DNA of 64,000 nt. Source: an uncultured Negativibacillus sp. (GTDB lineage: Bacteria; Bacillota; Clostridia; Oscillospirales; Ruminococcaceae). Every line of letters begins with the position of its first letter. Position 1 is the first letter of the stretch. Below, one piece after another: positions 5,011-63,799 of the stretch. The stretch spans positions 1 to 64,000 of the forward strand of contig NZ_CALXIN010000003.1 of assembly GCF_944388365.1 (NCBI RefSeq). Direction: 5' to 3'. Under the pieces are notes generated by a model. That model was not told the DNA's origin and did no database searches. It worked only from the letters and a program-made list of their open reading frames with translations. Both the position numbers and the translations under genes were made by a program.

Positions 5011-5550
5011 CGTCTTTGCGCCGTAGGCAAACAAAAGTTTTTGGTTGAGCTTTTTTCAAAAAGCTCATAGGGGTACGGGGGCAACGCCCCTGTGACATTT
5101 CAACAATATAAAATAAAAATCGTTAGAGGCAGGGTGCCGTTTCGGTGCTGTGGTGCGAGAGCACCGTTTCCCAAAGGGAAACTTTATTTGTTTTCGCCTG
5201 TCTTTGCGCCGTAACCAAATACTTTTCTTTTAGCAAAGAAAAGGTGGTAGGGGTTGTGACATTCCAACAATATAAAACAAAAATCGTTAGTGGCAGGGTG
5301 CCGTTTCGGTGCTGTGGTGCGTGAGCACCGTTTCCCAAAGGGAAACTTTGTTTGTTTTCGCCTGTCTTTGCGCCGTAGGCGAACAGAAGTTTTTGGTTGA
5401 GCTTTTTTCAAAAAGCTCATAGGGGTACGGGGGCAACGCCCCTGTGATATTTCAACAATATAAAATAAAAATCGTTAGGGGCTGAGTGCCGTTTCGGTGC
5501 TGTGGTGCGTGAGCACCGTTTCCCAAAGGGAAACTTTATTTGTTTTCGCC
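5011..5550. repeat. Three tandem ~164-188-bp intergenic repeat units
   Basis: Units are 5011-5198, 5199-5362 and 5363-5550. Each starts with GTCTTTGCGCCGTA and ends with GTTTCCCAAAGGGAAAC, ACTTT, then TTGTTTTCGCC. Units 1 and 3 carry a GAGCTTTTTTCAAAAAGCTC hairpin and a GGGGGCAACGCCCC hairpin. In unit 2 this part is replaced by ACTTTTCTTTTAGCAAAGAAAAGGT, a short form of the palindromic element at 2781. All three share AACAATATAAAA, AAAATCGTTAG and GGTGC/GCACC hairpins. A further partial start (5828-5850) lies before adhE. No coding sense is supported. Confidence 0.85.
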
Positions 5551-5585
5551 CGACTTTGCACCATACAAGCCAGAGCAAGTTTCTA

Positions 5586-5690
5586 CCGTCAAAAATCATC
5601 CACCGGATAATTTTTGAGGAAAGTTTATACTCTTAATTGGTTTTCGAGAACCTTTTCTCTTGCAGAAAAGGAGATTGAAAACTTTTCTCA
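5586..5690 (-). repeat. Dispersed repeat module C (AAAATTATCC), reverse copy
   Basis: On the minus strand this reads GTTTTCAATCTCCTTTTC, TGCAAGAGAAAAGG, TTCTCGAAAACCAAT and then CCTCAAAAATTATCC with ATCATTTTTGACGG. Direct-orientation copies lie at 60537-60640 and 63660-63758. It contains the hairpin CCTTTTCTGCAAGAGAAAAGG. Confidence 0.75.
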
Positions 5691-5711
5691 ATCCCGAGCT
5701 CTCCCAATGAG

Positions 5712-5806
5712 CGCCTGACGATAAAGGTGTTTCGCACTCTGCGGAGTGCGACCAAAGGCGTTGCCTCTGGACACCACCACCTTTTGAAAAAGGTGGACGA
5801 AAACTT
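5712..5806 (+). repeat. Dispersed repeat module A, copy 2
   Basis: CGCCTGACGATAAAGG is followed by a GCACTCTGCGGAGTGC hairpin, an AAAGGC-GTT-GCCTCT segment, CCACCTTTT-GAAAAAGGTGG, and AAAACTTTT. The order of parts matches 2649-2748 while the stem sequences have changed together, so pairing is kept. Confidence 0.7.
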
Positions 5807-5868
5807 TTGTTCTGTCCTCCCGCTACCCGTCTTTACGCCGTAGGCGAACAGCGTGCAGGCTCAGCCTG

Positions 5869-8786: not shown

Positions 8787-8827
8787 AGAAAAAGACCTGC
8801 ACGGTAAAACCGTACAGGTCTTTTTTA
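8787..8827 (-). terminator. Terminator of the pilus operon
   Basis: AAAAAGACCTGCACGGT and CCGTACAGGTCTTTTTT pair around a short A-rich loop. On the minus strand it begins within the last codons of the second sortase gene and ends in a T run. Confidence 0.9.
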
Positions 8828-9658
8828 TCTTTGGTGTTTCTTTTGGTATCTTGCCCTGATTTGTGTTCCCACTGCTATCAGCACAAGCAGCAGCCATACG
8901 GCTGTGCTTGCCCAGAAGATCAGCTGTCTGCGTTGGGTCTGGCTGGAAACCTTCGGAGCGTCGGACGGTTCGTCCGACTGTTCTGCTGTGGAAACAGCGG
9001 CTGTCTGCTCCTGTGTCTCCTCCGCCTCCACACGCTGGCCGCGCACCAACAGGCGGTGGCTGTTAACTCCATAGGGCACGCAGGTGATCAGCGTCACCAT
9101 GTCCTTGCCTTCTTCGATTTGCAGTGCATCGGTCTGCCACGGCTCTACCGTCAGAATCTGATCTGCCTGATAGCAAAGCTCCTCTCCCATCACATACAGA
9201 GAAAAGCGGTCGCCGATTTCCAGCTGTTCCAGCTCGGTGAACATCAGCTGGGAGGCAAGGCCGCTGTGGCCGGCAAGCACCGCATGGGTGCTCTCGCCGC
9301 CCACCGGAAGGGAGCTTCCGCTCAGATGACCGATGCCCTTGCGCAGAATCTGCTCGGTGGTTCCTTCGTAGATGGGCAGATAGACGTCGATCTTTTCGAT
9401 CTCCACATAGCCCAGCAAGCCTTCCTCTCCACCGGAAGGCTGCTGACTGGAGAAGGCATCCTCCAGCGCAGACTGCTCTGTGCTGAGCTGCTGGTTGTAT
9501 TGCTGCGCCTGCTGCCGCTGGCTGTCCTGCTGGGTGCTCTCCATCTCCTGCTGATAGGCTTCAAACTGTGCGCGATACTCCCGCTGGGAATACAGCGACG
9601 AAAGATACGGATAGTTGAGCAGCCCAAGTCCCACCAGAACGATCAGCAAAAATATCAC
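8825..9658 (-). CDS. Class C (pilus) sortase, second copy
   Basis: Class C sortases are membrane transpeptidases that polymerise pilins. The 277-residue product has an N-terminal membrane segment (IFLLIVLVGLGLLNYPYL), a catalytic domain with His in VLAGHSGL, Cys in LITCVPYG and Arg in HRLLVRG, and a second C-terminal membrane segment (IFWASTAVWLLLVLIAVG). The start is taken as the GTG whose bases overlap the TGA of the preceding sortase gene (GTGA), behind AAGGAGGA. The lid segment has DAF where class C enzymes often have DPF or DPW. A Q-rich stretch at about residues 40-65 is unusual. Confidence 0.88.
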   Translation of the reverse strand: MIFLLIVLVGLGLLNYPYLSSLYSQREYRAQFEAYQQEMESTQQDSQRQQAQQYNQQLSTEQSALEDAFSSQQPSGGEEGLLGYVEIEKIDVYLPIYEGTTEQILRKGIGHLSGSSLPVGGESTHAVLAGHSGLASQLMFTELEQLEIGDRFSLYVMGEELCYQADQILTVEPWQTDALQIEEGKDMVTLITCVPYGVNSHRLLVRGQRVEAEETQEQTAAVSTAEQSDEPSDAPKVSSQTQRRQLIFWASTAVWLLLVLIAVGTQIRARYQKKHQR

Positions 9659-10485
9659 CTTTCGGATAGGTCCTTCCTCCTTCTGCGCCGGTGCGATACC
9701 ACGCCGGCAATGGCGGCTGCTCCTCCCAATGCCACAAATCCCAGCAGCACCATGCGGTATTCCAGCAGCCATCGGCTGTGGGTCTGCTCTGTGCCGGCGG
9801 TTTGCACCGTCTCCTCGGTGCGCTGTCCGCGCACCAGCAGGCGGTGGCTGTTGATGCCGTACGGCGTGCAGGTCATCAGCGTGACCAGATCCTCTCCGTC
9901 CTGAATGTACAGTGCATCCAGCTCCTGCGGCTCCGCCACCAGAATCTGATCCACCCGATAACAGAGCGTCCGGTCAAGGACCTTCAGATAAAACAGGTCG
10001 CCGATCTCCATCTGCTCCAAATCGCTGAACAGCCGTTTTCCTGGAAGTCCGGCGTGAGCGGAAAGCACGCAGTGGGTGCTCTCTCCGCCGGTGGGCAGCG
10101 AGCTTGCCTTGAGGTGACCCACGCCCTCCTGAAGCACCGCTTCCTCGGTGCCATGAAAGATCGGCAGCGACAATTCCAGCTTTGGAATCTCCAAAATTCC
10201 CATTTGGCCGTCGCCCAGTGGGTTGAGCTGCTGCTCATAGCTTTCCGGCTCCGACTGCTGCTCTGTGGCAAAAGGGTCGGTCACCCGCTCGCTTCCCTGA
10301 TGCAGGAGGCGGTTGTACGCAACCGCCTCCTGCCATTCTTCTTCCAGCTGTGAGGTAGAAACCTCTCCCTGCACATACTGCACCTGATTCTGATACAGCC
10401 ATTGGCTGACAAACGGATAGACTGCAAGCCCTGTGCCCAGCACAATCGCCAGCACTGCCAGCAGACTGGTCCATCTTCTTTTCAC
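9655..10485 (-). CDS. Class C (pilus) sortase, first copy
   Basis: The 276-residue product has an N-terminal membrane segment (LLAVLAIVLGTGLAVYPFV), the lid motif DPF in ERVTDPFATEQ, catalytic His in LSAHAGLPG, Cys in LMTCTPYG, Arg in HRLLVRGQR, and a C-terminal membrane segment before a basic tail (SHRRRRRKDLSER). The GTG at 10485 follows AGGAGGAAGATT. In-frame codons extend upstream only into the pilin gene and are rejected. It is clearly a paralogue of its neighbour; two class C sortases commonly divide the work of shaft polymerisation and tip or base attachment. Confidence 0.9.
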   Translation of the reverse strand: MKRRWTSLLAVLAIVLGTGLAVYPFVSQWLYQNQVQYVQGEVSTSQLEEEWQEAVAYNRLLHQGSERVTDPFATEQQSEPESYEQQLNPLGDGQMGILEIPKLELSLPIFHGTEEAVLQEGVGHLKASSLPTGGESTHCVLSAHAGLPGKRLFSDLEQMEIGDLFYLKVLDRTLCYRVDQILVAEPQELDALYIQDGEDLVTLMTCTPYGINSHRLLVRGQRTEETVQTAGTEQTHSRWLLEYRMVLLGFVALGGAAAIAGVVSHRRRRRKDLSER

Positions 10486-10504
10486 AATCTTCCTCCTCGG
10501 TCCA

Positions 10505-12253
10505 TCAGCTGCGGCCTTTTCTGCGGGAAAGGACCAGATAGACGACTCCGACCACAATCACCAGCAGACCGCCGGCGGTAAACATCCAGCTTTCCATGCT
10601 GCCGGTGTTCGGAATGTACATCGTTCTCGGGTTGACGACGCTGAGCTTGATCAGGTCGTCCTCAATCGAGGCACTGCCCATCTGTCCGTCCACCAATGTT
10701 CTGGTCACATCCAGACGTCCGGTATACTCCCCGTTGACCTGCTCGCCGCACAGCGTGATGCAGATGTCCTCGTCGGGCAGTGCATAGCCGTCCGCCGTCT
10801 GGATTTCTCTCAAGTAATAGGTGTCCTCCGCCAGGCCATAGAGGGTGAATCTTCCGCCCGCATCGACGCTCAGACGGTTGGAGGCGGCATCTGCGCTGAC
10901 GATGTAGCTGCCGTCCTCCTGCTGCTCGAGCAGCACCGGCTGTTTGTCCTCGCCGCGGTACAGCTCAAAGACGACGCTGCCATTTGCAGGAGTGTTCTGG
11001 TCGCCCAGATACTTCTGCAGCCGGACGCCGAAGCTGTAGCTGTGCACCACATCCCAGCGGTTCGTTTCTTTCCATCTGTCCGGCGGGTCATCCGGCGGAT
11101 TGGTTGGCGGGTTGGTCGGCGGATTGTCTGGAGGGTCCACCTCGCTGTCGTAGTTCATCCGCGCACTGTTGGTCGCATCTGCTTCGGTGACCAGCGCGGT
11201 ATACTCCACATACAGCTCCTGCCCTCTCAGCGCTTCCACTTTTTGGAGGCCCTGCTGGGTAAATTGCAGCAGCACTCTGGTGCCGCCCACCGCATCCTTC
11301 TGATCCTGCGGCAGGTCTGTGGAAAGCAGATTCTCCTTGATCGTCAGCTGGTAGTCCGCGCCCTCCTGATAGGTCTGTCCGCGGATGTCAGTCACGCTGA
11401 GGATGCGCTTAAATTCCAAACCCTTGGTCAGCACGTCCTCCACCGAAAAGGCGGTCAGTGTTTCATATTCGCCCATCACCGGTGGATTGATGGTCAGCTT
11501 AAACTGAAGCACATCGCCAGGACTTGCAGTAGCGCTGCTCTGCTGGGTGCCGTCGCTTCCGATGACCTTTTTGTCCAGCTTTTCATACACCAGACCGCTT
11601 TTGGCCGAGATGGTGACGTTGGTCTGCCAGTCTCCGCTTTTTCCCTGCGGCAGCGGGAAAATCAACGGGCTCTGCGGCTCCACGATGTTGATGGCATCGC
11701 CGTTGATGTCCTTGGCGTCGTCGATGTTGGACTGTACCAGCAGGTACAGTCCGAAGTCCAGTGCCGCCGTCGCTTTGCCGTCCTTACCGGTAATCATCTT
11801 TTCGCCGGTGATGCCTGAAAGAGTGACGTTGGTTTTCCCTTCCAGCGCTTCATTGATGCTCTGCTGTGCGCCGGCATTGGTGTAAAAAAAGTAGTTAGAG
11901 TCGCTGCCGTCGGCAAAACCTGCAATACCCAGTGTATTGGCAACACTCTCCAGGATGCCGTAGCCGGTTTGCCATTCTTTGCTGCCGGTCTGGATGTTAA
12001 ACAGGTCGCCGATCCTGTAGGCGGTATACTCCACGCCGATGACCGGCTTGGGTTCCTGCCCGCTGATGTTGTTGATCATCTGCTCCACCGTCAGATTGGC
12101 GGTGGTGGTGCCAAGATCGTAGTCATACGCGGTGACTCTGGTCGCTGTCCAGCCGTCCGCTCCGACCGGAGCGGACAGACACCCTGCGATGAGCAGGACC
12201 GTCAGCAGCAGCGCGGTCAGCGAAAAACAACCCTTCGATCTGATTTTTTTCAT
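10505..12253 (-). CDS. LPXTG-type backbone pilin with isopeptide domains
   Basis: The 582-residue product starts with a signal peptide (MKKIRSKG, then LTALLLTVLLIAGC). A pilin-motif-like segment WQTNVTISAK lies near residue 222. It fits WxxxVxVxPK except for Ala in place of Pro, and its lysine is the likely linkage site for sortase polymerisation. An E-box-like YYLREIQTADGYALP occurs near residue 490. A proline spacer of repeated NPPT/DPPD lies near residues 375-392. The C terminus is IPNTG, a hydrophobic segment and RRKGRS, a standard sorting signal. ATG follows AAAGGAGCG. It lies between the giant adhesin and the sortases, as in SpaA-type operons. Confidence 0.88.
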   Translation of the reverse strand: MKKIRSKGCFSLTALLLTVLLIAGCLSAPVGADGWTATRVTAYDYDLGTTTANLTVEQMINNISGQEPKPVIGVEYTAYRIGDLFNIQTGSKEWQTGYGILESVANTLGIAGFADGSDSNYFFYTNAGAQQSINEALEGKTNVTLSGITGEKMITGKDGKATAALDFGLYLLVQSNIDDAKDINGDAINIVEPQSPLIFPLPQGKSGDWQTNVTISAKSGLVYEKLDKKVIGSDGTQQSSATASPGDVLQFKLTINPPVMGEYETLTAFSVEDVLTKGLEFKRILSVTDIRGQTYQEGADYQLTIKENLLSTDLPQDQKDAVGGTRVLLQFTQQGLQKVEALRGQELYVEYTALVTEADATNSARMNYDSEVDPPDNPPTNPPTNPPDDPPDRWKETNRWDVVHSYSFGVRLQKYLGDQNTPANGSVVFELYRGEDKQPVLLEQQEDGSYIVSADAASNRLSVDAGGRFTLYGLAEDTYYLREIQTADGYALPDEDICITLCGEQVNGEYTGRLDVTRTLVDGQMGSASIEDDLIKLSVVNPRTMYIPNTGSMESWMFTAGGLLVIVVGVVYLVLSRRKGRS

Positions 12254-12286
12254 CTTGATTCGCTCCTTTGCTCGGAAATGTCTGTC

Positions 12287-15200
12287 CTAGCGGTCAGAAT
12301 GTCGTTTGTTGTGTTTTCTGCGTTTTCTGCCTGCCAGATACCATACGCCTGCACAGGCTGCGCCTGCGCCCGCTACACCTGGCCAGAAGAAGCCTCCTGC
12401 ACCGGTGTTGATGGTCTGGAAGTACTGGTTGTTGTGGACGGTGTAGGTCACCTCGCTGGCAAGATAGCCGCCGGTGACTTTCCAGTATAGGTCTGCCGGT
12501 TTCTCGGTTGTCAATGCTTCAAAAGAAACTGCAATCGGCTCGGTCAGGCGGTTATAACCATCCGGCGTGCTGACTTCCACAATCTGATAGTTGATCTGTG
12601 TGCCGTTCTCATCGGTCAGCAGCAGGTGGGTGTAGGTCAGCTTGCCGTCCGCATCGGTGGTCTGCTGTACTTGGAATGTCGCTGCCTTGCAGACGGTGTC
12701 ATCGATGTCTTTCCAGTTTCCGGCGGTGTCCTTGTACTGCAATTCAAAGACGACGCCCTCCAGTGCCTTGCCGTTGCCATCCATCTTCTCGATGTTTACC
12801 TTACCCATCGGGAGGTTCTTGACGGTAAACTTCTTGTCGGTGGAAGCCGAGTCAATCGTTTCTGGAGAGACGATTCCAAACAGATTGTCCTTCATCGACT
12901 TTTCGACAGTTTCCTCCACCCTGTACTCGTACAGAGTCGTGCCATCTGCGCGCGGCAGGTTCTTCCAGGTGGCGGTCCAGGCAGCCGATGCATAGCAGGT
13001 GTCGTTTTCAGTACCCGCTTCGCCGTTCAGTGTCACTTTTGCAGAAGTGTCGCCGTCATACTTAAATTCTGTCCATTCACCATCTTTGGGCCGCTGATAG
13101 AGGGTCAGGGTGACCGTCTTGTCTTTGCTTGGCGCACTTGGTTTCCACTGTTTCTCGGCGGTCAGGGTCATGTGGGTGCGCTTGTTGGTGACGGTTGTAC
13201 CGCTGTTATCCTGATAGGAGACGGTGTAGTCGTTGCCAAACTTTCCACCAGCGTCAAGGATATCGTCATCATTAACCGTCGGTCCTGTCCAGCCCTCTTT
13301 CAGCTCGCGGGCACGATAGGTGTAGGTGACAACCTTGTCGTTCTCGATGCCGTTGGTCGGCAGACCGGTCAGCTCCGCTTTCCACAGGTTCGTTGATGAC
13401 AGCTTCACAACAAGTGGATTGCTGCCATCTGTGACAATCTTCCACTCGTACACGGTTCGGCTGCCATCCGATGAGGTTTCGTTTACCTCGCGCTGGATGA
13501 CCAGATGCACCTCCTTCGGCAGGCCGTCGGTCAATTTTTTGCCGGTTTCATCGGTCCAGCGCTTCTCCACATTCAGTTCCTGCGTCTGAAGCCGGTTGTG
13601 CAGTGCAATTTTCAGCGTTGTGCCGCTTTCTGCCGAAACTGCTGTCACATTCTGCGGTGTGAACAGGCCGCCCAAAACATCTGTGCCTTTGATTTCATGT
13701 TTCAGGGTCTGACCATTCACTGTCACATCATACTCCTGTGTCAATCCACCGGCTGTTATCTTTGTCTCAGCAACGGCATAATAGAGTGTTGTTCCGGCTT
13801 GATTTACCCTTGGCAAATCTGCAAAGGTTACCGCTTTGGTGCCGCCGATGGTGGTTTCCAAAGTCGGGGTAAAGTCGTAATTCGTGCCGAACCACTTCGT
13901 CCAAGGCTCTTTAAAACTGCCATCATCATTTTTGAAATACTGTGATGCAGGCTGCAATTTTTCATCGCCTTCTGCCACATACAGCTCGCCGGTGATGGTG
14001 ATTTTATCCAGACCCAGGTAGTCGTCGGTCAGCTTGGTACCGTTCTGATCCTGCCATTCCTTGGAGAAATTCAGGTTAATTTTCAGCGAGTTGGTCAGAT
14101 CATCCATCTTGTAGGTGTTGCCATTTTCCGACCAGCTGCCGTTGGCAGAGGCAGATTTTGGATAATAGTAATAGCCATCTAATCCATCTGTGTCCTCCTT
14201 GACGACATATTTCCACTCCATGCCGTTAGGAGCGAACTTTTCCAGACCAGTGATGGTGTAGGTCCATTCTTTTGCTGTGGCATCCGTACCGTCACTTGGT
14301 TCCCATTTCCATTCCCATTTTGAACCGTCGAGATTATGCTCAGGAACAGCTATAGGATCCTTTTCTGTGCCAATTCCGTTATTCTCTCCTCCTGACTGTG
14401 CAGGTGCCCAGCGCCACAGTGTCAGCGTTTTCTGGAAATCCTCCAGTTTCGGCCGCAGTTCCAGTGCATCATTCTGGTCTTCCCAAACCTTGGTGCCGGT
14501 CAGCTTGATGTTCTCCGGCTCGTATTTGTCGCCGAAGGTGGCGGAAACATCGAGGTTTGCCGCGGTTGCATCATTTACGTTTTTGGTCGGATACAGCTCG
14601 TTGTCATACTTCAGGTAGCCATCTTCCATTACGCCCTGCGAAGGAGCTTCAAAGATAGTCCCAAAGTCTTCTACTTTGACATCTCCGCCTTTCACAGCGG
14701 ACTGGTAGTTGAGGTAGCCGACTACCTTTTCGCGGACAAAGTACCGATACTCATAGCCGTTTGGCTGGTAGATCGGCAGGTTTTCAAAGGTAAAGGTATC
14801 TTCGCTGTCCAGTACAAATGTCGTTGCATCAGGATCAGCAGCAGCTTCAGCAGCTTCAGCATCTGTTTCTACCTCCGCTGCGCTCCAGGTCAGCTCGACT
14901 GGTTCAAAGCCGGCGTCCTCATAATAGTTTTTGCCGTCGGTGGTGTATTCGCGCACAAGCTCGATGGTGACAGCCGGATAAGCCTTCCAGTTTTTGCCGA
15001 CCTGCAGCAGCTTTTTGACCTTGAGTGCGCCCAGCGTTGGATTATACTCATTCTTAATCTGGTAGCCGCTGCTCTCAATCTTGCTGAATATCTGATCCTT
15101 GCTGACAGTCTCATCCTTAAACTCGATCTCTTCGGTCAGGGTGTAGCTGTACTGCTGGCCATTATCATCATATTTTGGGATTTCCTCTCGTTGTTCAGCA

Positions 15201-18200
15201 GGAGGGGCACCAATAGCAGTCTTGCTACCATCCTTGTTCAGCTTCCATTCGCCGGTTTTATCAAACGTAAAGTTTGTTTTAAGCGCACTGGTCCAATCTC
15301 CGGTATTGATGGTGATGCTGGCGATTTCACCGCCCGGAGATGTGCCGTCTAGTTGTCCATCATTACCCAGCACGCCATCGCAGGTGATGGTGAAGGTAAC
15401 GGTCGGCAGATTCTCCGGTTTCCACAGCGACGGCAGATTGTCCCACAGTTTGACGCCGGAAATCTCTGCCGGAGCCTCGATGCGGTTGGTGAAGGTTCCA
15501 CCTTCCAGCACCGCTTCTTCGTTTTCGCCGTCCACAACTACTGTCCGTTTCCAATCCTTATCTTCGATCTGTGTTGTATCATCTCCTTCTATCGTTCCAG
15601 TCTCCGTGACATAGCTCAGCTCGACCGGAACATAGTCAAAGTTTGCACCGTCCGCCGCCATGCGTTCGGTGGCATAGTAGAAGATTTCCCGACCTTTGTC
15701 ATCATACTTTGGCAGCTCCTTAAAGAGACAGCTCCATTTATATTCTGTCCACTCGCTACCTTGGAACTCGGTCCAAACGCGGTCGTGGTATGGTTCGACA
15801 ACCTCCAATTTGTCGGTATCGTTGTCCAGACGGTACAGGGTCAGATAGATATCCGGACGCATGTCAAGAATCCGATAGACATAGTGGTCCTTCCACGTTT
15901 TGTGGAAGCTGACATCCTTGGTGCCAGACAGCTTGTTGGTGACCTTCATTTCCTGACTGTCGGTGTCGTCACCATCATCATCATTGTGATTGGACTGATA
16001 TTTTCCCGCTTCCACCGAACTGCTGCATTCCTTGAGCAGTTCGATCAGCTCGGCGTCGGCAGATTCTTCCTCCAACTTCTTAATCAGCTCATCTTTCTTC
16101 TTAATACAATCATTGTAACTGATGTTTTCCGGCAGATTGCCTGTGCCCTTGTACCACATTTCCTTGATGGTGTAGTGGGCCACCTCGCCTAAAGTATTGT
16201 ACTTTGGCAGGTTGCAGAAGTAATAGTCCTGCGTATTGTTCTCTGTGCCCAAAATCAGCGGCAGGATTGCTTTACTTTCCTTTCCGGCATTGTTTTGAAT
16301 CTGAACCTTCTCTTCACCGCCCAGTGTGACAGTATTCTCTTCATAATCAATGTCATATTCTCCACTGTCGACATAGCTCTGATCCTGTTCGGCAAACTCC
16401 AGCACCAGCACCGGTGTGATGTTGGCTTTTTCCAGTGCTTTTTGCAGTTCTCCGCCGTCCTGCCAGATCTTGGTGGCGGTGATGTCTATGCTGCCCAGTC
16501 GACGGTTGGTGACGACATAGACATCTTCGTTCGCGATGTTTCCTTGATCGCCGTTCTTCAATATCGAGTAGGTGATCTCATAATCGTGGTGCTTGGCCAA
16601 AACCTTGTTGGTTTCACCGACATAGTTGGCTCCATCCTGCTTGACAGCTCCGCCTGTGATCTGGGTATCACCCATCTGGGTCTCGAGGACATAGACGTTG
16701 TTCACATTATAGTTGGTTATACCGCCATTCTGCAGATCCTCGTCGCTGAAATAGAGATAGTCCATGCCGACGCCGTTTGCCTCGAGCGTCAGCGTGCCCA
16801 GTTCAACATCGTTTTTACCATCTACATAGTAGTAGGCGGTGATGGTGACATCCTCGCGGTGGTACAGGTCGCTGTCGTCGATCCAGCGCTTTCTAATCAG
16901 GATGCGGTACCCTGTACCGATTGGAGGCGGGTTGCTGACCGAACCCTCATAGTCGCCGGTGACAGGGTCGCGGGTGATGTCATAGCCAGCGACATATTTA
17001 TTTCCATTTTTTTCTTGCTCGAAGATAAAGTATTCCAGCTGATAACCGCCCTCGTCATAGCGCGGCAAGCCTTCGATATGGACCGGCCAGTGGGCAGCAT
17101 CCTCCCCGATTTGATCTTTCGACAAAGCGCCCAGCTCCTGAACGGTGACGTTGTATGTCTCCTGTCCGATTGTGACCCTCTCTGTTGTTTCAGGGTCATC
17201 TTTTGTACCATCCAGGGTTACCTCAAACAGTTCCTTGTTCTGGCCGTCTCTGCCGCGGGAATACAGCTTAAAGGTGACGCCACCGTTTTGGATAACATTT
17301 TGTAACTGATCTTCCGTCCAGCCATTCTGCCAGATCTTGGTGAAATCATAGTTGATGGTATCCTTGACCTTGTTAACGATGGCTGCATTTCCTTTCTGAA
17401 TCTCTTCCTCGGTCGGTTGAATCGACTCAAAGAGAACCGTCTGCCCATTCTCTTTTTCCCACTCGATGATGGGCTTTCCATCCTTATCCTTTGTCATCAA
17501 GTTTTTCTTATCTGGGTCGGTTGACAGATAGACCTTTGCCTCCATAAACTTGTATTCCAGTTCCTTGCCATGCTCGTTATAGGTCGGCACCGACATGCTG
17601 GCGCTCTGCTGGAGATTTTCTGCCGTAAAGCCCTCCATCTTCAGCACCTTGCCCTCTACGATGTCCCACGGGATCTCATCCGTCGAACCCTTCAGGCGGG
17701 AATACAGCTGCAATTCGACCACAAAGTCGGACAGCTCACTCTGGAACGAGGAAGCCTCCCAGCGCTTGGTGGCAGAAATCGTTCTGCTGGCGGTGATGCG
17801 GTTGGTCAGCGTGCCGTTTTCGTAGATATAGATGTTGCCGTTCTCTCTGGTTTCGCCCGATGGCAGAGGGTCAGGCGTAACTTTTCCATCGTCGCCTACT
17901 GTGCCAAATACCTGCTCATAGTCGGAACTTCCCTCTTTTTCGATAATTTCCTTGCAGACATAGATGTACTCATATCCCTCTGGGCCGTATTTGTCCAGCT
18001 GGGTACTAAAGTCGATGACTTGAGTATCTTTGTCAGTATCCAGCTTTACCGTCAGAATTTGTCCATCTGCACCACGAACCGGCGAGGCCTGATCCCAGGT
18101 TTCTTTTCCAGGGCGGTAGCGCCAAAGTTCAAAGCGGCCTGTTGGACGTTTACCCTTATCATCCATATCCAGCCAGACTTTGTTTGCCTTATAGGTGGTA

Positions 18201-21200
18201 TTTCCCTGCAGTGTCAGCACCATGGTATCGCCATGGAACACCTTATCGTTGTTGACGCCCTGTGTTTTGTACTCGACGGTCAGCCAGTCGCCTTCATCAC
18301 CGATGCCAGTTGCCGGCAGATTTATTTTGCTGACGTCGACTTTTTCGTCATTGTATTGAACTGCATACTGCACCCTGTCACCGTTGACCGTATAGGTGCC
18401 AAGGCCGGTAATTTTGACGATATAGTTGCCATTGTCATCCTTATCTACATTACAATCAATCGAGGAATCATTCTGCAAAAGCTTTGCAAGATTGATGGTA
18501 CCCGTTCCGTCCTGAACATTTTTTGCCGCATAGTACAGGGTAAAATTCTTCACGATCAGATCTTTTATCGTGCCGGTGTCAGGATCGCCTTTCGCGCCGT
18601 TTCGCAGATCCACGGTAAAGGAGAACGGTTCTTCCAACAGGTAGTACCATTTTCCCTTTTTCGATTCAGCCTGCCCGTTCCACCAGGTGTAGTTGGGTAT
18701 ATCTTCCTCCGGCACATACTTCCAGACGACCTGTCTGCTGTTGTTTTCGTTACCGCCATAGTGGATGGAGGTTGGAAGGTTTGCTGTGGCCTTCCAGTGA
18801 TTTCCACTTTCTGTTATCGTGATCAGGTTATCTATATTGTCTAACCCTACCTGCCCCATATTTTCGGCAGTCAATTCGATGTAGTCCTTGTCGGTCACAT
18901 CTTCCTTGTTCTGTCCTTTGTCCAGAATACAGAACGCCAGCTTCATCCCTTCTTTATAGTTCGCTGTTGAAGGACGCTTGAAAGTATCATCCTTATCAAT
19001 CCAGTAGATGTCCTGGGTCTGATCGACTCTTTCAGCGATCGCGACGTCCTTTTTCTTTTCCTCCAAGAAGTCTTTCAGCGGATAGGTGCTTTCCTTTTTG
19101 GCAAGCTCTTCGGCTGGCTCACCTGCCGATGTCACCGTTACCGAGGAGGTCAGTGTTTTCGGCGGATTGTTTTGGGTATCATCGGTCAGCGTGACCGTCA
19201 CTGTGCGGGTCCAGGGTTTATCTTTTTCGATCTTAACCGGATTATCCGTGGTACCCCAGGTCAGTGTTTTTGCATCAGTGTCCCATGTTTTACCCGATTC
19301 ATCTTTGACAGTCGGCGCAACCTCGGTGTTCGTTTTTGCTGGTGCCTGCATAGTGATGATGACGTTGGCATCCGAGCCATCCTCCGCGGTATTCTCCACC
19401 GTAATCTGATAGGTCACCTGCAGTTTGCCCTTGTCACTAAAGGTCGGCTGGCCCGACAGCTTATACGTTACACTCACTGCTGAATCTGCTGTCGGCACCG
19501 GATCACCCTCATCAGGTGCTGCTCCCAGCGACAAAGGAGTGGCTGCCGATGCCGAGCGGGTGAGTTCTTCCCCTGTCTGGGAAATCGCTTTAAAACTGGT
19601 GGCAACGCCGATCTCGCCCTCGGCAAATTCATCCAGCACCTTTAATGCCGAACCGTGCAGCACAAACTGAAGGTCAGGTGCAGCAAGCTCCCGACCTTGA
19701 TTTTCTGCGTCGGTTATTGTTTTTGTGTAGGTGATGGTCAGAGCAGAGCCATTCACCACAGCAGAGATGTTCTCTGCTGTGGCTGACACGTTACCGGTAA
19801 CGTCCAAATTGTCGATGGTGACCACCGGCACCTCGCCGATGAGCACCTGATTGCCGACCACCTGTGCATTCCCCGTTGGGTACTGCAATCCCTGCGGCAG
19901 TGTAAATGACTGCTCCAGCGTCCATTCTCTGGTATAGATGGTACCGGTCTGCGCATCGTTTTCCGACTGGATGGTCACATGGTAGGAAAAATCCTTGTCG
20001 ATGATGCGCTCTTTGGGTGGTTCTTCAGAGGGATTCTTTTCCTTTGGCAGCGAGTCGGACTGCCCGTTATTTTTATAAAGCGTTCTGTCGGCCTGCTGAA
20101 CCATTCCCATCTGATACAGCACCGATGACATCGCAAATACCTTGCTCACCGTTCTTGGCTGTGTTTCAAACAGGTCGCTGCGTTTCGGCTGACCATCATC
20201 CGGTTCTGCCGGACCTTCGACCAGACTGAGTTCGCCCCACGAGAACGGCTGCACTGCAAAGGTCAGTGTTCCGCCGCTGATTTGATGAATCACCTGTGGA
20301 GGAGTTGTGTTTTCCGGCTGTTCTGTTGGCTCGCCGTCCTGCTGCTGACCTGCCGGATCATCGTCCTGCTGCTGATCTGCTGGATCATCGTCCTGCTGCT
20401 GACCTGCCGGATCATCGTCCTGCTGCTGACCTGCCGGATCATCGTCCTGCTGCTGACCTGCCGGATCGCCGTCCTGCTGCTGACCTGCTGGATCGTCATC
20501 CTGCTGCTGACCTGCTGGCTCGCCGTCCTGTGGCTGATCTGCTGGCTCGCCGTTATTGCCCTGCGGTTCCAGTTCGGTCGATGGACGAGCGACAAATTCT
20601 TTGACAATCTGTACTCCCTGCAGTTCCACTGTTCCTTCGCTCTGGGATTCCTGCTGCAGAGCTTCGCCCTCGGTCTGGAACTGTTCCTGCTGTTGGGCGT
20701 TTGAAAGTTCTTCTTTGCCAGCTTCACTTTCGCCGGTTTCGCTACCAGCTTCGCTGCCATCGGTTTCATTGCCGCCAGTTTCGTTTCCGCCGACTTCGCT
20801 GCCATCGGTTTCGCCGCCGGTTTCGCCGCCTTCTGGTACTTCAATGTCGCCGGTTTCTCCGTCGCCTGGTACTTCGATGTCGCCGGTTTCTCCGTCGCCT
20901 GGTACTTCGCTGCCACCGGTTTCATTGCCGCCAGTTTCACCGTCGCCGGTTTCGTTGCCGCCAGTTTCGCCGTCACCGGTTTCGCCGTCGCCTGGTACCT
21001 CACCTTCGCCGGTTTCTCCGTCGCCTGGTACCTCACCTTCGCCGGTTTCGCCGTCGCCTGGTACCTCACCTTCGCCTGGTGCCTCACCTTCGCCGGTTTC
21101 GCCGCCTTCTGGTACCTCACCTTCGCCTGGCACTTCGACGTCACCATCAGTTGGAGGCAGTGTTTCCTCCGGCGTTTCAGGAGCAACCGGTTCCACAGGC

Positions 21201-21754
21201 TGTTCTGTCTGCAGCCAGGTTTCGTTGACTGTAATATCCTGTTCGGTTACCGGAATGGATATTTCCTCGTTGTAACCGTTTTGATAGAGCAGATTCAGTG
21301 GCTGATTGACCAGGGCCTGACCTGCGCTCAGTGAAAATTGCAGAATGGTACTGCTGCCATCCTCATAAAGTTCCACTGGTACAGAAATGCCCATCGTGTC
21401 CATCCACTGCACGCCCTCTGGCTGTGCCTGATTGATCGCCTGCAGCGCATGCTGCGGCAGTCTCACCGCAATCTGTGTGTCTATCGTTTCCGGAACATTG
21501 ACATTCATATAGAATGTTCCCGTTTCCCCCATCTGCACCGTGCTTTTTTCTGCTTCCGGTGCAAAGCTCAAGGTAACCCCTGCTACCTCCTGAGGGATCT
21601 GTTGATTCTGTCCATCATCAGACACCGTTTGTTCCTGCTGAGCAGAGAAGATATCTCCTCCCCACGCGAAAACGATGTCTGGCAGATTTGTCAGTGCGAT
21701 TACCAGCACAAGTAACAAAGCAACTGCTCTTTTAGAAAAGAAACTTTGCTTCAT
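12287..21754 (-). CDS. Giant Cna-B repeat surface adhesin / pilus tip protein
   Basis: The 3155-residue secreted protein has a signal peptide (about 1-30, ending VFA). A Gly/Glu/Pro/Thr-rich repeat follows (about 206-345; units such as EVPGDGETG), then about eight 9-residue QQQDDDPAG repeats (about 402-478). A beta-rich region with DUF11-like parts spans about 500-1180. Some thirteen Cna-B-like domains start near residues 1187, 1321, 1468, 1620, 1758, 1946, 2098, 2243, 2416, 2561, 2726, 2865 and 2985. Most begin with the K-x-W type strand (TKIWQDGG, TKVWEDQN, EKRWTDET) whose lysine forms an isopeptide bond. The end (QTINTGAGG, hydrophobic segment, RKRRKHNKR) is a variant sorting signal without proline. 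It is the first gene of the pilus operon. Confidence 0.9.
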   Translation of the reverse strand: MKQSFFSKRAVALLLVLVIALTNLPDIVFAWGGDIFSAQQEQTVSDDGQNQQIPQEVAGVTLSFAPEAEKSTVQMGETGTFYMNVNVPETIDTQIAVRLPQHALQAINQAQPEGVQWMDTMGISVPVELYEDGSSTILQFSLSAGQALVNQPLNLLYQNGYNEEISIPVTEQDITVNETWLQTEQPVEPVAPETPEETLPPTDGDVEVPGEGEVPEGGETGEGEAPGEGEVPGDGETGEGEVPGDGETGEGEVPGDGETGDGETGGNETGDGETGGNETGGSEVPGDGETGDIEVPGDGETGDIEVPEGGETGGETDGSEVGGNETGGNETDGSEAGSETGESEAGKEELSNAQQQEQFQTEGEALQQESQSEGTVELQGVQIVKEFVARPSTELEPQGNNGEPADQPQDGEPAGQQQDDDPAGQQQDGDPAGQQQDDDPAGQQQDDDPAGQQQDDDPADQQQDDDPAGQQQDGEPTEQPENTTPPQVIHQISGGTLTFAVQPFSWGELSLVEGPAEPDDGQPKRSDLFETQPRTVSKVFAMSSVLYQMGMVQQADRTLYKNNGQSDSLPKEKNPSEEPPKERIIDKDFSYHVTIQSENDAQTGTIYTREWTLEQSFTLPQGLQYPTGNAQVVGNQVLIGEVPVVTIDNLDVTGNVSATAENISAVVNGSALTITYTKTITDAENQGRELAAPDLQFVLHGSALKVLDEFAEGEIGVATSFKAISQTGEELTRSASAATPLSLGAAPDEGDPVPTADSAVSVTYKLSGQPTFSDKGKLQVTYQITVENTAEDGSDANVIITMQAPAKTNTEVAPTVKDESGKTWDTDAKTLTWGTTDNPVKIEKDKPWTRTVTVTLTDDTQNNPPKTLTSSVTVTSAGEPAEELAKKESTYPLKDFLEEKKKDVAIAERVDQTQDIYWIDKDDTFKRPSTANYKEGMKLAFCILDKGQNKEDVTDKDYIELTAENMGQVGLDNIDNLITITESGNHWKATANLPTSIHYGGNENNSRQVVWKYVPEEDIPNYTWWNGQAESKKGKWYYLLEEPFSFTVDLRNGAKGDPDTGTIKDLIVKNFTLYYAAKNVQDGTGTINLAKLLQNDSSIDCNVDKDDNGNYIVKITGLGTYTVNGDRVQYAVQYNDEKVDVSKINLPATGIGDEGDWLTVEYKTQGVNNDKVFHGDTMVLTLQGNTTYKANKVWLDMDDKGKRPTGRFELWRYRPGKETWDQASPVRGADGQILTVKLDTDKDTQVIDFSTQLDKYGPEGYEYIYVCKEIIEKEGSSDYEQVFGTVGDDGKVTPDPLPSGETRENGNIYIYENGTLTNRITASRTISATKRWEASSFQSELSDFVVELQLYSRLKGSTDEIPWDIVEGKVLKMEGFTAENLQQSASMSVPTYNEHGKELEYKFMEAKVYLSTDPDKKNLMTKDKDGKPIIEWEKENGQTVLFESIQPTEEEIQKGNAAIVNKVKDTINYDFTKIWQNGWTEDQLQNVIQNGGVTFKLYSRGRDGQNKELFEVTLDGTKDDPETTERVTIGQETYNVTVQELGALSKDQIGEDAAHWPVHIEGLPRYDEGGYQLEYFIFEQEKNGNKYVAGYDITRDPVTGDYEGSVSNPPPIGTGYRILIRKRWIDDSDLYHREDVTITAYYYVDGKNDVELGTLTLEANGVGMDYLYFSDEDLQNGGITNYNVNNVYVLETQMGDTQITGGAVKQDGANYVGETNKVLAKHHDYEITYSILKNGDQGNIANEDVYVVTNRRLGSIDITATKIWQDGGELQKALEKANITPVLVLEFAEQDQSYVDSGEYDIDYEENTVTLGGEEKVQIQNNAGKESKAILPLILGTENNTQDYYFCNLPKYNTLGEVAHYTIKEMWYKGTGNLPENISYNDCIKKKDELIKKLEEESADAELIELLKECSSSVEAGKYQSNHNDDDGDDTDSQEMKVTNKLSGTKDVSFHKTWKDHYVYRILDMRPDIYLTLYRLDNDTDKLEVVEPYHDRVWTEFQGSEWTEYKWSCLFKELPKYDDKGREIFYYATERMAADGANFDYVPVELSYVTETGTIEGDDTTQIEDKDWKRTVVVDGENEEAVLEGGTFTNRIEAPAEISGVKLWDNLPSLWKPENLPTVTFTITCDGVLGNDGQLDGTSPGGEIASITINTGDWTSALKTNFTFDKTGEWKLNKDGSKTAIGAPPAEQREEIPKYDDNGQQYSYTLTEEIEFKDETVSKDQIFSKIESSGYQIKNEYNPTLGALKVKKLLQVGKNWKAYPAVTIELVREYTTDGKNYYEDAGFEPVELTWSAAEVETDAEAAEAAADPDATTFVLDSEDTFTFENLPIYQPNGYEYRYFVREKVVGYLNYQSAVKGGDVKVEDFGTIFEAPSQGVMEDGYLKYDNELYPTKNVNDATAANLDVSATFGDKYEPENIKLTGTKVWEDQNDALELRPKLEDFQKTLTLWRWAPAQSGGENNGIGTEKDPIAVPEHNLDGSKWEWKWEPSDGTDATAKEWTYTITGLEKFAPNGMEWKYVVKEDTDGLDGYYYYPKSASANGSWSENGNTYKMDDLTNSLKINLNFSKEWQDQNGTKLTDDYLGLDKITITGELYVAEGDEKLQPASQYFKNDDGSFKEPWTKWFGTNYDFTPTLETTIGGTKAVTFADLPRVNQAGTTLYYAVAETKITAGGLTQEYDVTVNGQTLKHEIKGTDVLGGLFTPQNVTAVSAESGTTLKIALHNRLQTQELNVEKRWTDETGKKLTDGLPKEVHLVIQREVNETSSDGSRTVYEWKIVTDGSNPLVVKLSSTNLWKAELTGLPTNGIENDKVVTYTYRARELKEGWTGPTVNDDDILDAGGKFGNDYTVSYQDNSGTTVTNKRTHMTLTAEKQWKPSAPSKDKTVTLTLYQRPKDGEWTEFKYDGDTSAKVTLNGEAGTENDTCYASAAWTATWKNLPRADGTTLYEYRVEETVEKSMKDNLFGIVSPETIDSASTDKKFTVKNLPMGKVNIEKMDGNGKALEGVVFELQYKDTAGNWKDIDDTVCKAATFQVQQTTDADGKLTYTHLLLTDENGTQINYQIVEVSTPDGYNRLTEPIAVSFEALTTEKPADLYWKVTGGYLASEVTYTVHNNQYFQTINTGAGGFFWPGVAGAGAACAGVWYLAGRKRRKHNKRHSDR
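20323..20551 (-). repeat. 27-bp tandem repeat inside the giant adhesin gene
   Basis: About eight consecutive 27-base units encode QQQDDDPAG with D/G exchanges at one position. The stretch codes for a hydrophilic linker and is a likely site of length change by slippage. Confidence 0.85.
20720..21139 (-). repeat. Imperfect Gly/Glu/Thr/Pro-coding repeats in the giant adhesin gene
   Basis: Imperfect units encode EVPGDGETG, GETGGNETG and related strings over about 140 residues. They probably form an extended stalk between the N-terminal region and the folded domains. Confidence 0.8.
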
Positions 21755-22129: not shown

Positions 22130-23521
22130 ATGCAACCATCAAACAGTAAAACCGTCCTGTTTGAACAGACTGCCATCCCGAAAGCTGTTGCACAGCTTGC
22201 CGTTCCGACCATCCTCAGCTCGCTGGTCATGGTCATCTACAACCTTGCCGACACCTACTTTGTCGGCATGCTCAACGACCCTGTCCAGAATGCAGCGGTC
22301 ACACTGGCTGCGCCGGTGCTGCTTGCCTTTAACGCCATCAACAACCTGTTCGGTGTCGGCAGCTCCAGCATGATGAGCCGTGCGCTGGGACGAAAAGACT
22401 ATGAAACCGTATCCAACAGCTCCGCCTTTGGCTTTTACTGCGCACTGGGCTGCGGCGCCATCTTCTCCCTGTGCTGCACCGTCTTTCGCCAGCCGCTGCT
22501 GAGCCTGCTGGGTGCAGACAGCACCACCATCGACGCCACCGCCTCCTATATGCTGTGGACCGTCACCTGCGGTGCAGTGCCTGCCATCCTCAATGTCGTC
22601 ATGGCTTATCTGGTCCGCTCGGAAGGTTCGGCCATACACGCCAGCATCGGCACCATGAGCGGCTGTCTGCTCAACATCGTCCTCGACCCGATCTTTATCC
22701 TGCCATGGGGACTCAACATGGGAGCCGGCGGCGCGGGACTTGCCACCTTTATCTCCAACTGTGTCGCCTGCCTGTATTTCTTTGTGCTGCTGGCTATCAA
22801 ACGCGGACGCACCTTTGTCTGCATCAACCCCAAGAAATTCACCCTCAAAAAGGAGATTGTCCGCGGCGTGTGCGCGGTCGGCATCCCGGCCTCGATTCAG
22901 AACCTGCTCAACGTCACCGGCATGACCCTGCTCAACAACTTCACTTCCGCTTACGGCGCAGATGCCGTCGCTGCCATGGGTATCTGTCAGAAGATCTACA
23001 TGGTTCCGATGTACGTTTCCCAGGGACTTTCCCAGGGCATTATGCCGCTGATCAGCTATAACTACTCCAGCGGCAACATCCGCCGTATGAAACAGACGGT
23101 CAGCTTTTCGCGCAAGGCTGCGCTCACCATCATCATCTCGGTGGCGCTGCTCTTCGAGCTGTTCCCAGCCACCTTTGTTTCGCTGTTCATGCAGAACGAG
23201 ACGATCATCGCCTATGGTACCCACTTCCTGCGCGGCTTCTCGCTGGGACTGCCCTTCCTGTCGCTGGATTTTCTGGCAGTTGGTATCTTTCAGGCGGTCG
23301 GCATGGGACGCGAATCGCTGCTGTTTGCCATCCTGCGCAAAATCGTGCTGGAAATCCCTGCCCTGTGCATCCTCAACTGGCTGTTCCCTCTGTACGGTCT
23401 GACCTATGCCCAGTTTACCGCTGAGGTGATTCTGGCCATCGCTGCACTGATTGTAACAGCCCGCCTGTTCCGCCGTCTGGAACGCGAACATTCCGTCCCG
23501 ACTCAGAGCACAGAAGAATAA
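22130..23521 (+). CDS. MATE-family multidrug/cation exporter
   Basis: MATE proteins export drugs or metabolites in exchange for Na+ or H+. The 463-residue product has the expected twelve-membrane-segment layout. It begins with the family signature region AVAQLAVPTILSSLVMVIYNLADTYFVGML (residues 17-46) and has the pseudo-repeat VCAVGIPASIQNLLNVTGMTLLNN near residue 246. It most resembles the MepA/DinF-like branch. ATG follows AAGGAGAG. It is monocistronic with its own promoter and terminator and diverges from the pilus operon. The substrate is not evident. Confidence 0.9.
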   Translation: MQPSNSKTVLFEQTAIPKAVAQLAVPTILSSLVMVIYNLADTYFVGMLNDPVQNAAVTLAAPVLLAFNAINNLFGVGSSSMMSRALGRKDYETVSNSSAFGFYCALGCGAIFSLCCTVFRQPLLSLLGADSTTIDATASYMLWTVTCGAVPAILNVVMAYLVRSEGSAIHASIGTMSGCLLNIVLDPIFILPWGLNMGAGGAGLATFISNCVACLYFFVLLAIKRGRTFVCINPKKFTLKKEIVRGVCAVGIPASIQNLLNVTGMTLLNNFTSAYGADAVAAMGICQKIYMVPMYVSQGLSQGIMPLISYNYSSGNIRRMKQTVSFSRKAALTIIISVALLFELFPATFVSLFMQNETIIAYGTHFLRGFSLGLPFLSLDFLAVGIFQAVGMGRESLLFAILRKIVLEIPALCILNWLFPLYGLTYAQFTAEVILAIAALIVTARLFRRLEREHSVPTQSTEE

Positions 23522-23532: not shown

Positions 23533-23574
23533 AAAAAGGATGTCCTTTCTATTGGAAAGGACATCCTTTTTTAT
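23533..23574 (+). terminator. Terminator of the MATE exporter gene
   Basis: AAAAAGGATGTCCTTTC and GAAAGGACATCCTTTTTT pair around TATTG, with a T run at the end. Confidence 0.93.
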
Positions 23575-23614
23575 TTTGCTATTTTCCGTTTGATCTCTGT
23601 ATCTCATGGGCTTG

Positions 23615-24056
23615 TACAGAGAATCCGTCTATTCTTTCTCCTCCAAAGGTGCGTAAATCGACATCACCTGTTCTGCGACACGCACGCCATCGTGGATGGT
23701 GGAATCCACCATCCCAACGGCGAAATGCTACCTTCCCGACGGAGTGTTACTTTCTTTCCTCCAAAGGTGCGTAGATCGACATCACCTGTTCTGCGACTCG
23801 TACGCCATCGTGGATGGTGGAATCCACCATCCCAACGGCGGAATACTGCCTTCCCAACGGCGTGCAGAAAATTTGCCTATTCCTTCTCCTCCAAAGGCGC
23901 GTAAATCGACATCACCTATTCTGCAACTCCTACGACGTCGAGGACGGCGATAGCGTGCGGAGAATCCGCCTACTTCTTCTCCTCCAAAGGTGCGTAGATC
24001 GACATCACCTGTTCTGCGACTCGCACGATGTCGAGGACGGCGTGCAGAAAATCCGT
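23615..24056 (-). repeat. Four degenerate tandem copies of the 3' end of the adjacent flavoprotein gene
   Basis: The core CTCCAAAGG(T/C)GCGTA(A/G)ATCG, continuing through ACATCACCT, occurs at 23641, 23759, 23889 and 23982, and again at 24069 inside the gene. Spacing is 118, 130, 93 and 87 bases. On the minus strand each copy encodes V-x-E-x-V-M-S-I-Y-A-P-L-E-E-(K/R)-(K/E) and then a stop, the same as the true C terminus. Copies 1 and 2 also share GTGGATGGTGGAATCCACC and TCCCAACGGCG. This fills the gap between the MATE terminator and the flavoprotein gene; no start codon or binding site is seen. Confidence 0.85.
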
Positions 24057-25703
24057 CTATTCTTTCTCCTCCAAAGGTGCGTAGATCGACATCACCTGCT
24101 CTGCGACACGCACGCCGTCCACGGCAGCGCTCACAATGCCGCCCGCATAGCCGGCGCCTTCTCCACAGGGGTACAGTCCGCTCAGACCCAGCGCCTGTAA
24201 CGTGTCAGGATTGCGGGTGATGCGCACCGGCGAGGAAGTTCTCGTTTCGATGCCGGTAATGACCGCATCCGCATCGGCAAAACCAGGCAGCTTGCGGTTA
24301 AATCGGTGCATTCCCTGCTCGAGCATGGTGTTGATTTGCTCAGGGAAGGCGCTGCGCAGGTTTGCCTCCTTGACACCGCACGAAAAGCTCGGCGTGGTCG
24401 AAGCCATCGAAAGGTCAGGGCTGCTCTGTTCCAGAAAGCTCTTGACCGACTGGGCAGGAGCGCGGTAATCGCTTCCACCCAGGCAGAATGCCTTGTGCTC
24501 CAGCTGACGCTGGAAGGCGATGCCGTCGAGCACGCCGCTGCCATAGTCGGCGGTATCCACCGACACCACCAGCGCCGCATTGGCATTCTGGGCATCGCGG
24601 GCATACTCGCTCATGCCGTTGGTAACGACGGTGTTTTCCTCCGACGAGGACGCCACCACAAAGCCTCCCGGGCACATACAGAAGGTATAGACGCCTCTGC
24701 CCTGTTCATTGCGCCAGGACAGCTGATATTCTCCTTTTGGCAAAGAGGGATGACCTGCACTTTTTCCGTACAGTCCGTAGTCGATCACCTTCTGGGACTG
24801 TTCGATGCGCACACCCACCGAAAACGGCTTTGGCTCCAGCACCACCTGCTTTTGGCACAGCATCTCAAAGGTGTCGCGCGCACTGTGGCCCACCGCAAAG
24901 ATGACCGCCTCGGCAGGGATCTCTCCCTGCTCCGTTTTGACCGCCTGCACACGGCCATCTTTAAGCACAACATCCTCCACCTTGGTCAAAAAGTGGACCT
25001 GTCCGCCCAGACGGATGATCTCCTCGCGGATGTTTTTGACCACTCCTCTCAGCAGATCGGTGCCCACATGCGGTTTCTGGCGGTAACGAATCTCCTGTGG
25101 TGCGCCGTGGCGGATCATCTCCTCCAAAATAAAGCTGCATCGGGAATCGCTGATGCGGGTGGTCAGCTTGCCGTCCGAAAAGGTGCCGGCGCCGCCTTCT
25201 CCAAACTGCACATTGGTGGCGGTGTCGAGCCGGCGCTCCTTCCAGAAGCCTTCCACTGCCTGCACACGGCGATCTACATCGGCGCCGCGCTCCAGAATGA
25301 TCGGACGGTATCCCATCCGCGCCAGAGCCAGACCCGCAAACATTCCCGCCGGACCAAATCCGACGATGACCGGCGGACGCTGCATCGGCTGGCTTCCACA
25401 GGAAAATTGCAGCGGGACACTGTGCTGAATCTTGATCTGCTCTGCATTGCGTCCATGGACACGGGACAAAACCTCCCGCTCCTTGCACGCCAGTTCCTTT
25501 TCATCGGCATTAAGCTCGAATCCCACCGAGCTGACCAGCAGGATATTGTCCTGGTGACGGGCATCCACGCTGGTTTTGACCAGATAGGCACAGGCGATTT
25601 CCTCCCTGCGAAGGTGTGCCATCTTTCGCGCCGCTTCCAATATCTTTTCTCTGTCCGATGAGTCCTTCAGCGATGTTTTTACCTGTGAAACGATAATCGC
25701 CAT
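24057..25703 (-). CDS. FAD-dependent dehydrogenase of the COG2509 type
   Basis: The 548-residue product is a large flavoprotein of unknown reaction. A short N-terminal domain (residues 1-95) precedes the FAD-binding loop PPVIVGFGPAGMFAGLALARMGYRPIILERG (about 109-139). GEGGAGTFSDGKLTTR and CMCPGGFVVASSS follow. The C-terminal FAD segment is GLYPCGEGAGYAGGIVSAAVDGVRVAEQV. Members of this family often sit with cdaA, ybbR and glmM in Clostridia, as the first two do here. Only an 80-base gap with one hairpin separates it from cdaR. Its last 16 codons are the source of the tandem copies beyond its stop. Confidence 0.85.
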   Translation of the reverse strand: MAIIVSQVKTSLKDSSDREKILEAARKMAHLRREEIACAYLVKTSVDARHQDNILLVSSVGFELNADEKELACKEREVLSRVHGRNAEQIKIQHSVPLQFSCGSQPMQRPPVIVGFGPAGMFAGLALARMGYRPIILERGADVDRRVQAVEGFWKERRLDTATNVQFGEGGAGTFSDGKLTTRISDSRCSFILEEMIRHGAPQEIRYRQKPHVGTDLLRGVVKNIREEIIRLGGQVHFLTKVEDVVLKDGRVQAVKTEQGEIPAEAVIFAVGHSARDTFEMLCQKQVVLEPKPFSVGVRIEQSQKVIDYGLYGKSAGHPSLPKGEYQLSWRNEQGRGVYTFCMCPGGFVVASSSEENTVVTNGMSEYARDAQNANAALVVSVDTADYGSGVLDGIAFQRQLEHKAFCLGGSDYRAPAQSVKSFLEQSSPDLSMASTTPSFSCGVKEANLRSAFPEQINTMLEQGMHRFNRKLPGFADADAVITGIETRTSSPVRITRNPDTLQALGLSGLYPCGEGAGYAGGIVSAAVDGVRVAEQVMSIYAPLEEKE

Positions 25704-60417: not shown

Positions 60418-60446
60418 CTGCCCGCCAACACAAAATAAAGTTTGTC
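60418..60446 (-). repeat. Module D, reverse copy directly after pepT
   Basis: CTGCCCGCCAACACAAAATA and the following AAGTTTGTC are the reverse complement of module D at 59041-59072 with one substitution and a three-base indel. It starts four bases after the pepT stop codon. Confidence 0.75.
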
Positions 60447-60479
60447 CAATCCAGAGTGAAACTCTGGTCGCCTTCCGCA

Positions 60480-60640
60480 GAAGGCGAAAAGCCTTTATCG
60501 TCAGGCGTATTTTGGAGAGCTCGGGATTGAAAACTTGTTTTCAATCGCTTTTTCTACAAGAGAAAAAGTTCTCGAAAACCAATTTGTTTTGCAATCTAAC
60601 ACTCAAAAATTATCCAGAGGATGATTTTTGACGGTAGAAA
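60480..60640. repeat. Modules A (reverse, partial) and C (direct) after pepT
   Basis: GGCGAAAAGCCTTTATCG with TCAGGCG (60484-60507) is the reverse of the module A start. GTTTTCAATCGC, CTTTTTCTACAAGAG, TTCTCGAAAACCAAT and CAAAAATTATCC (60537-60640) form module C. No gene is recognised in 60450-60940 apart from these and a CTTTCTTGTGTGAAGAAAG hairpin near 60750. Confidence 0.65.
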
Positions 60641-60939
60641 CCTGTTTTGCTTTTCATTTGCAGGATAGCTCCTGCGAGGGCTTTTGTTGCAGGAAAGTCC
60701 CTGCATGACTTATGTGGGCTTCCGCAGCCCGCACCCGCGGCAACTTTCTTGTGTGAAGAAAGTTGCACAAAGAGCACACCAAAAACCTCCTGGTTTTTGG
60801 ATTTCCAGCAAAGGGGGCAGGTATGCCCCCTTTTGAAACCCCTCTGTCTCGATAGAGACAGTGCTCAACGTAACCGCCTACTATCTTGGGTGGCACGGGA
60901 GAAACCTGACATCAACCCGCTTTTGGTGTAGAACGGTGT

Positions 60940-63659: not shown

Positions 63660-63758
63660 TTGTTTTCAATCTCCTTTTCTGCAAGAGAAAAGGGTTTCAA
63701 GAACCGATGGGTTCAATACACTATCCTCAAAAATTATCCGGTGGATGATTTTTGACGG
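63660..63758 (+). repeat. Module C, third copy, upstream of glnS
   Basis: GTTTTCAATCTCCTTTTC, TGCAAGAGAAAAGG and CCTCAAAAATTATCCGGTGG with ATGATTTTTGACGG, in the same orientation as 60537-60640. The stretch 63525-63659 holds the glnS leader and short hairpins; no clear promoter boxes were found. Confidence 0.7.
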
Positions 63759-63799
63759 CAGAGACCTGTTCTGGTTTTCATTTGCAGGAAAGTTCCTGC

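Follow-up and report, generated by a model that had tools for sequence, protein, structure and literature searches.

Two convergent genes, one for a COG2509-type FAD-dependent oxidoreductase (flavoprotein) and one for a MATE-family transporter, flank an array of short repeats in the window, by which we mean the whole stretch of 64,000 nucleotides analysed here (Table 1). The COG2509 label comes from an earlier note on this DNA, and as "COG2509-type" it is supported by the domain match and by the match to a solved structure. The protein carries an FAD-dependent protein C-terminal domain and is homologous to VP0956; it is related to structure 3nlc (E 3.9e-139), with an alignment that stops at query residue 542 of 548, and a Negativibacillus massiliensis record matches it at 77%. 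The strong hairpin on the transporter side of the array is likely to be the shared terminator of the flavoprotein and MATE genes. Except for its founding copy the array lies outside coding sequence, in the gap from the stop at 24057 to the hairpin end at 23571, and the open reading frames listed within that gap are mechanical and short.

Table 1. Positions of the genes, repeat copies and hairpins at the locus (window coordinates)
Feature	Positions	Strand	Remarks
MATE-family transporter gene	22130-23521	+	Pfam MatE, E 6.2e-44; convergent with flavoprotein gene
Terminator-like hairpin	23533-23571		strong; I2, 17 of 17 paired; between array and MATE gene
Copy E	23629-23685	-	reads VRVAEQVMSIYAPLEEKE then stop; ends EEKE; 118 nt from D
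21-nt palindrome	23694-23714		spacer before copy E; inverted repeat I1 and fold
Copy D	23747-23803	-	reads VRVAEQVMSIYAPLEERK then stop; ends EERK; 130 nt from C, other frame
21-nt palindrome	23812-23832		spacer before copy D; inverted repeat I1 and fold
Copy C	23877-23933	-	reads VGVAE, stop, VMSIYAPLEEKE, stop; decayed upstream of VMS; 93 nt from B, same frame
Copy B	23970-24026	-	reads VRVAEQVMSIYAPLEEKK then stop; ends EEKK; 87 nt from A, same frame
Copy A	24057-24113	-	last 57 nt of flavoprotein gene; reads VRVAEQVMSIYAPLEEKE then stop
COG2509-type FAD-dependent oxidoreductase gene	24057-25703	-	ORF, 548 aa; Pfam FAD-depend_C PF21688, E 4.3e-73

Copies of the gene's 3' end

The earlier note had reported that the 3' end of the flavoprotein gene recurs behind the gene, and we found it there as described: four downstream copies which, with the gene's own end, make five. 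They are direct and head-to-tail, and so form a tandem array, with a spacing of 87-130 bases. A repeat finder placed the starts at 23612, 23730, 23860, 23953 and 24040 (spacings 118, 130, 93 and 87), and, over 90 nt, gave identities of 68-86% against the copy it took as reference. Tandem Repeats Finder returned two overlapping arrays, 23639-23864 (score 396) and 23857-24119 (score 340), and these scores put the array far beyond chance. Read in the frame of the gene, each of the five copies contains VMSIYAPLEE, two residues drawn from K, R and E and a stop, again as had been claimed; from A to E the dipeptides are KE, KK, KE, RK and KE. The further claim that each copy keeps its frame and stop holds from VMSIYAPLEE to the stop in all five, but copy C is interrupted just upstream, where a change of CAG to TAG has created an in-frame stop immediately before VMS. 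Copy C also has an R to G replacement, and the two lesions indicate that its decay has already begun. At the protein level B, D and E depart from the gene's own end at no more than the final two residues, and C additionally has its stop. Copy E is the nearest to A, with two differences in 57 nt, both synonymous. Copies A, B and C share one frame, 87 and 93 being multiples of 3, to which D and E do not belong; TAG is the stop codon that closes each of A, B and C, and the inner stop of C is TAG as well.

Read from the sequence, the repeat unit is about 85 bp long and is present five times. It starts near GCCGTGGAC in the gene, about 20-24 codons ahead of the stop, and ends near CTGCAC, about 15 bp past the stop. 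A 6-base insertion (two codons) lies between B and C, and units D and E carry a larger insertion that includes an inner repeat as well as the 21-nt palindrome. The spacers are 33-76 nt long; neighbouring spacers have words in common, and the pair preceding D and E is almost identical. We considered the spacers as longer homology to the gene, the protein reading before D and E somewhat resembling YAGGIVSAAVDG, and rejected this candidate, as local alignments of the spacers with the upstream gene sequence were no better than those with shuffles (P 0.26 for B, 0.41 for C, 0.24 for D and 0.93 for E).

Occurrence of the array and gene order

The array occurs once in its own assembly, where the next best match to its DNA is of 17 nt (E 0.3); with no copies elsewhere in that assembly, it is not a dispersed family of the MIRU, REP or MITE kind. 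Among six genomes of the genus four match the array DNA, and the three of these other than the array's own genome do so only at the true gene end. The gene itself was matched in 53 of 61 genomes, and the downstream comparison comprised 30 loci, the array's own and 29 from relatives. A direct downstream copy of the gene's last 120 nt was found at none of the 29 relatives' loci (four of them from congeners) within at most 1300 bases, the flanks compared being shorter at L030, L035 and L028 (711, 518 and 1276 bases, respectively). Five of the relatives' loci gave reverse-strand self matches only, which are hairpins. The gene's last two residues fall in a stretch that is variable in sequence and length across the 29 relatives.

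In two congeners, G002 and G003, a terminator-like hairpin comes directly after the flavoprotein stop and is followed by rpoN in convergent orientation, and the MATE relatives are on contigs other than the flavoprotein gene's. The rpoN of the genome studied here is on another contig (C7), with its own terminator and other genes after it. Since the gene end faces rpoN in those congeners and MATE here, the array fills the gap at a synteny break. Relative to G002, the flavoprotein/rpoN/MATE order is broken at several places (window positions 22130-47426 against L061 and L063; L060), and therefore more than one rearrangement separates the two genomes.

Origin and possible roles of the array

We think it probable that this is a lineage-specific intergenic tandem-repeat array of the minisatellite type, whose unit happens to include a gene's 3' end. 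Tandem duplication, by replication slippage or unequal crossing-over, would have produced it, and small insertions would have been gained later, the largest of them with the palindrome in units D and E. The downstream copies would lie in the tail of the transcript, ahead of the shared terminator, where only the first copy would end the protein; they are most likely untranslated and without function. A passive array of this kind is supported by its single occurrence, the synteny break, the other arrays in the genome (see below), the unrelated spacers, the mosaic pattern and the decay of copy C. Against it stands an excess of differences at third codon positions, which neither one burst with neutral decay nor constrained turnover readily reproduces.

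This excess was seen across the five copies, where 10 of 14 variable columns are third positions, 3 are first and 1 is second (Fisher p 0.001), and also without the living gene, in B-E (9 of 13, p 0.003) and in B-D (8 of 12, p 0.009). The last four codons are largely a purine run, so that differences there can also be read as slips; in the first 15 codons only, third positions account for 6 of 8 variable columns (p 0.011) and, among B-D, for 4 of 6 (p 0.085). Of 7308 accepted simulations of neutral decay after one burst, 0.2% reached 10 of 14 (P 0.002). Simulated turnover in which only the first copy was constrained reached it in 0 to 4.5% of samples, a range that comes from no samples at 0.02 events per mutation, 3 at 0.05 and 22-421 autocorrelated samples at other rates, and the mean third-position fraction was 0.33-0.41 compared with 0.71 observed. 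The chance that 12 random changes would spare VMSIYAPLEE and the stop is 0.00035, which overstates the case because the stretch was chosen for being intact. The earlier note had argued that random decay would have broken some of the copies; copy C is in fact broken, but first and second positions are avoided beyond neutral decay in what is a small, post hoc test. The third-position excess is a weak hint, faint, unproven and unexplained, that the copies stayed readable.

The shared stretches between copies also point to exchange. The longest exact runs lie in different parts of the unit (35 bases for A-B, 32 for A-D, 34 for A-E, 44 for B-D, 22 for B-C and 24 for D-E), and at six informative columns 8 of 15 site pairs are incompatible, a level that trees without exchange reached in 2% of 5000 uniform runs and in 5% of 5000 third-biased ones. 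Given the mosaic sharing and the incompatible site pairs, it is likely, but not proven, that exchange between copies has taken place. The suggestion that the copies are recent or kept by conversion holds up in part: the array is missing from the examined congeners, and mosaic copies are rare under a pure duplication tree.

Bacterial intergenic minisatellites and VNTR loci resemble the array in having head-to-tail copies of tens to about 100 bases, substitutions and small indels, and in being lineage-specific. However, the unit here takes in the 3' coding end and stop of a neighbouring gene. The MIRU sequences constitute a dispersed repeat family. MIRU tandem repeats in the senX3-regX3 gap of Mycobacterium tuberculosis have 77-bp and 53-bp units and differ in copies between strains; like the array, they are repeats of comparable length placed in tandem in the gap between two genes (PMC4213456). 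The array differs from MIRU in that its unit occurs once in its own assembly and is flanked by convergent genes instead of lying inside an operon. If the array is ordinary, it would illustrate how the 3' end of a gene can found a tandem array at the junction of a rearrangement, and it might serve for strain typing.

Silent-cassette systems such as pilS/pilE and vlsE keep partial gene copies beside an expressed gene, and the array likewise consists of partial copies adjoining an expressed gene. A silent store of tails would operate by recombination between the gene end and a copy, deleting what lies between and giving a new tail, with unfit copies purged and readable ones persisting. The exact runs that A shares with B, D and E would permit such exchange, and both the third-position excess and the mosaic pattern would fit it. 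However, copies B-E change only the last two residues, which are variable across relatives, and C would truncate the protein. Since the copies alter nothing else without loss, a reservoir of tails has little to offer. Copies B-E are not different, useful variants, and, unlike the cassette systems, the array has no useful protein variety, does not belong to a surface protein and carries no sign of directed exchange. Simulated turnover also gives too few third-position changes, and we regard a tail store as very unlikely. Equally doubtful is a coding-type constraint on untranslated copies through a tail-exchange device, in which copies become the gene end by deletion and are re-copied from the gene. 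Nevertheless, should further strains show the third-position bias as well, untranslated copies would, oddly, be under constraint of the coding type, and it would become possible to test whether a gene exchanges sequence with its own debris.

A series of site-specific integrations into the 3' end of the gene, in which every element brought a readable tail and later lost its interior, would account for the synonymous differences as well as the location. Such remnants are very unlikely, as the spacers contain no element, the array has no match in phage or plasmid records, its codon-degenerate core has none in viral contigs, and no integrase is present among the nine neighbouring genes scanned. 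An RNA feature, one of the purposes raised in the earlier note, was not supported by closer folding. A 3' untranslated region whose shape is maintained as a structured RNA or a terminator set might be expected from the fold of the whole region against shuffles (z -7.76, 20 shuffles), but taken piecewise only the palindrome-bearing stretches stand out (z -2.51 and -3.74), A-B (z +0.69) and B-C (z +0.78) being no more stable than their shuffled versions. A search of Rfam gave no match at gathering score, the seven matches listed being microRNA models with E 0.06-0.57, and a role in RNA shape is highly improbable. Nor was a reading of the array as a set of terminators supported; the second terminator-like hit, at 23957-23969 on the + strand, has a weak tail.

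Readthrough of TAG would join A, B and C, which lie in one frame with TAG stops between them, so that a suppressor would give a longer protein with repeated tails. The spacings in multiples of 3 and the uniform use of TAG would suit this, but D and E are out of frame, and the differences between the A-B and B-C spacers, compared by eye, show no third-position bias and include one two-codon insertion; readthrough is extremely improbable. The assembly is a draft of 169 contigs, and misassembly might be suspected for that reason. However, each copy has its own substitutions and spacers, which misassembly does not invent, and an artefact is most improbable, although the copy number may be understated.

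Other tandem arrays in the genome

A search for tandem arrays with a period of at least 50 gave 11 entries, about 8 of them distinct, in 862 kb of the array's own genome and one in 400 kb of G002. About 5 of the 8, judged by eye and counting the flavoprotein array, lie outside long open reading frames, and three are in coding sequence. With about eight arrays in the sampled part, this genome evidently makes such arrays, and the flavoprotein array is one that includes a gene's end. No second clear array of gene-end copies was found among 751 ORF-called genes (862,000 of 2,305,111 bases). The four entries of that scan are the flavoprotein gene, an opposite-strand mechanical ORF, a weak 39-nt match (L085) and an ORF that lies in repeat DNA at the edge of its contig (L101). 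The scan of G002 (361 genes, 400,000 bases) gave three entries, of which two cover 19-21 nt and the third, in L124, covers 57 nt at 81%.

Several further repeats were observed. An intergenic array elsewhere in the genome (L103:2683-3137) lies behind a 1185-codon ORF and has units of about 122 bp, each with a terminator-like hairpin. At L105:6747-6986, 57-bp coding repeats (DNGEAPLGSPENPIAEEPQ) occupy the extreme C-terminal end of a long ORF, a case in which the tail of a gene has multiplied without loss of frame. Within the window, an intergenic tandem array at 5089-5559 has a period of about 164 and 2.7 copies. Repeat words near it (2506-2731, 5586-5852, 60437-60643 and 63676-63767) also match the congener G002, which points to a dispersed repeat family shared across the genus. 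Finally, window positions 8825-21754 hold a pilus-type locus with two consecutive sortases, a SpaA-like pilin and a surface-type protein of 3155 aa that has long coding repeats near its N-terminal end.
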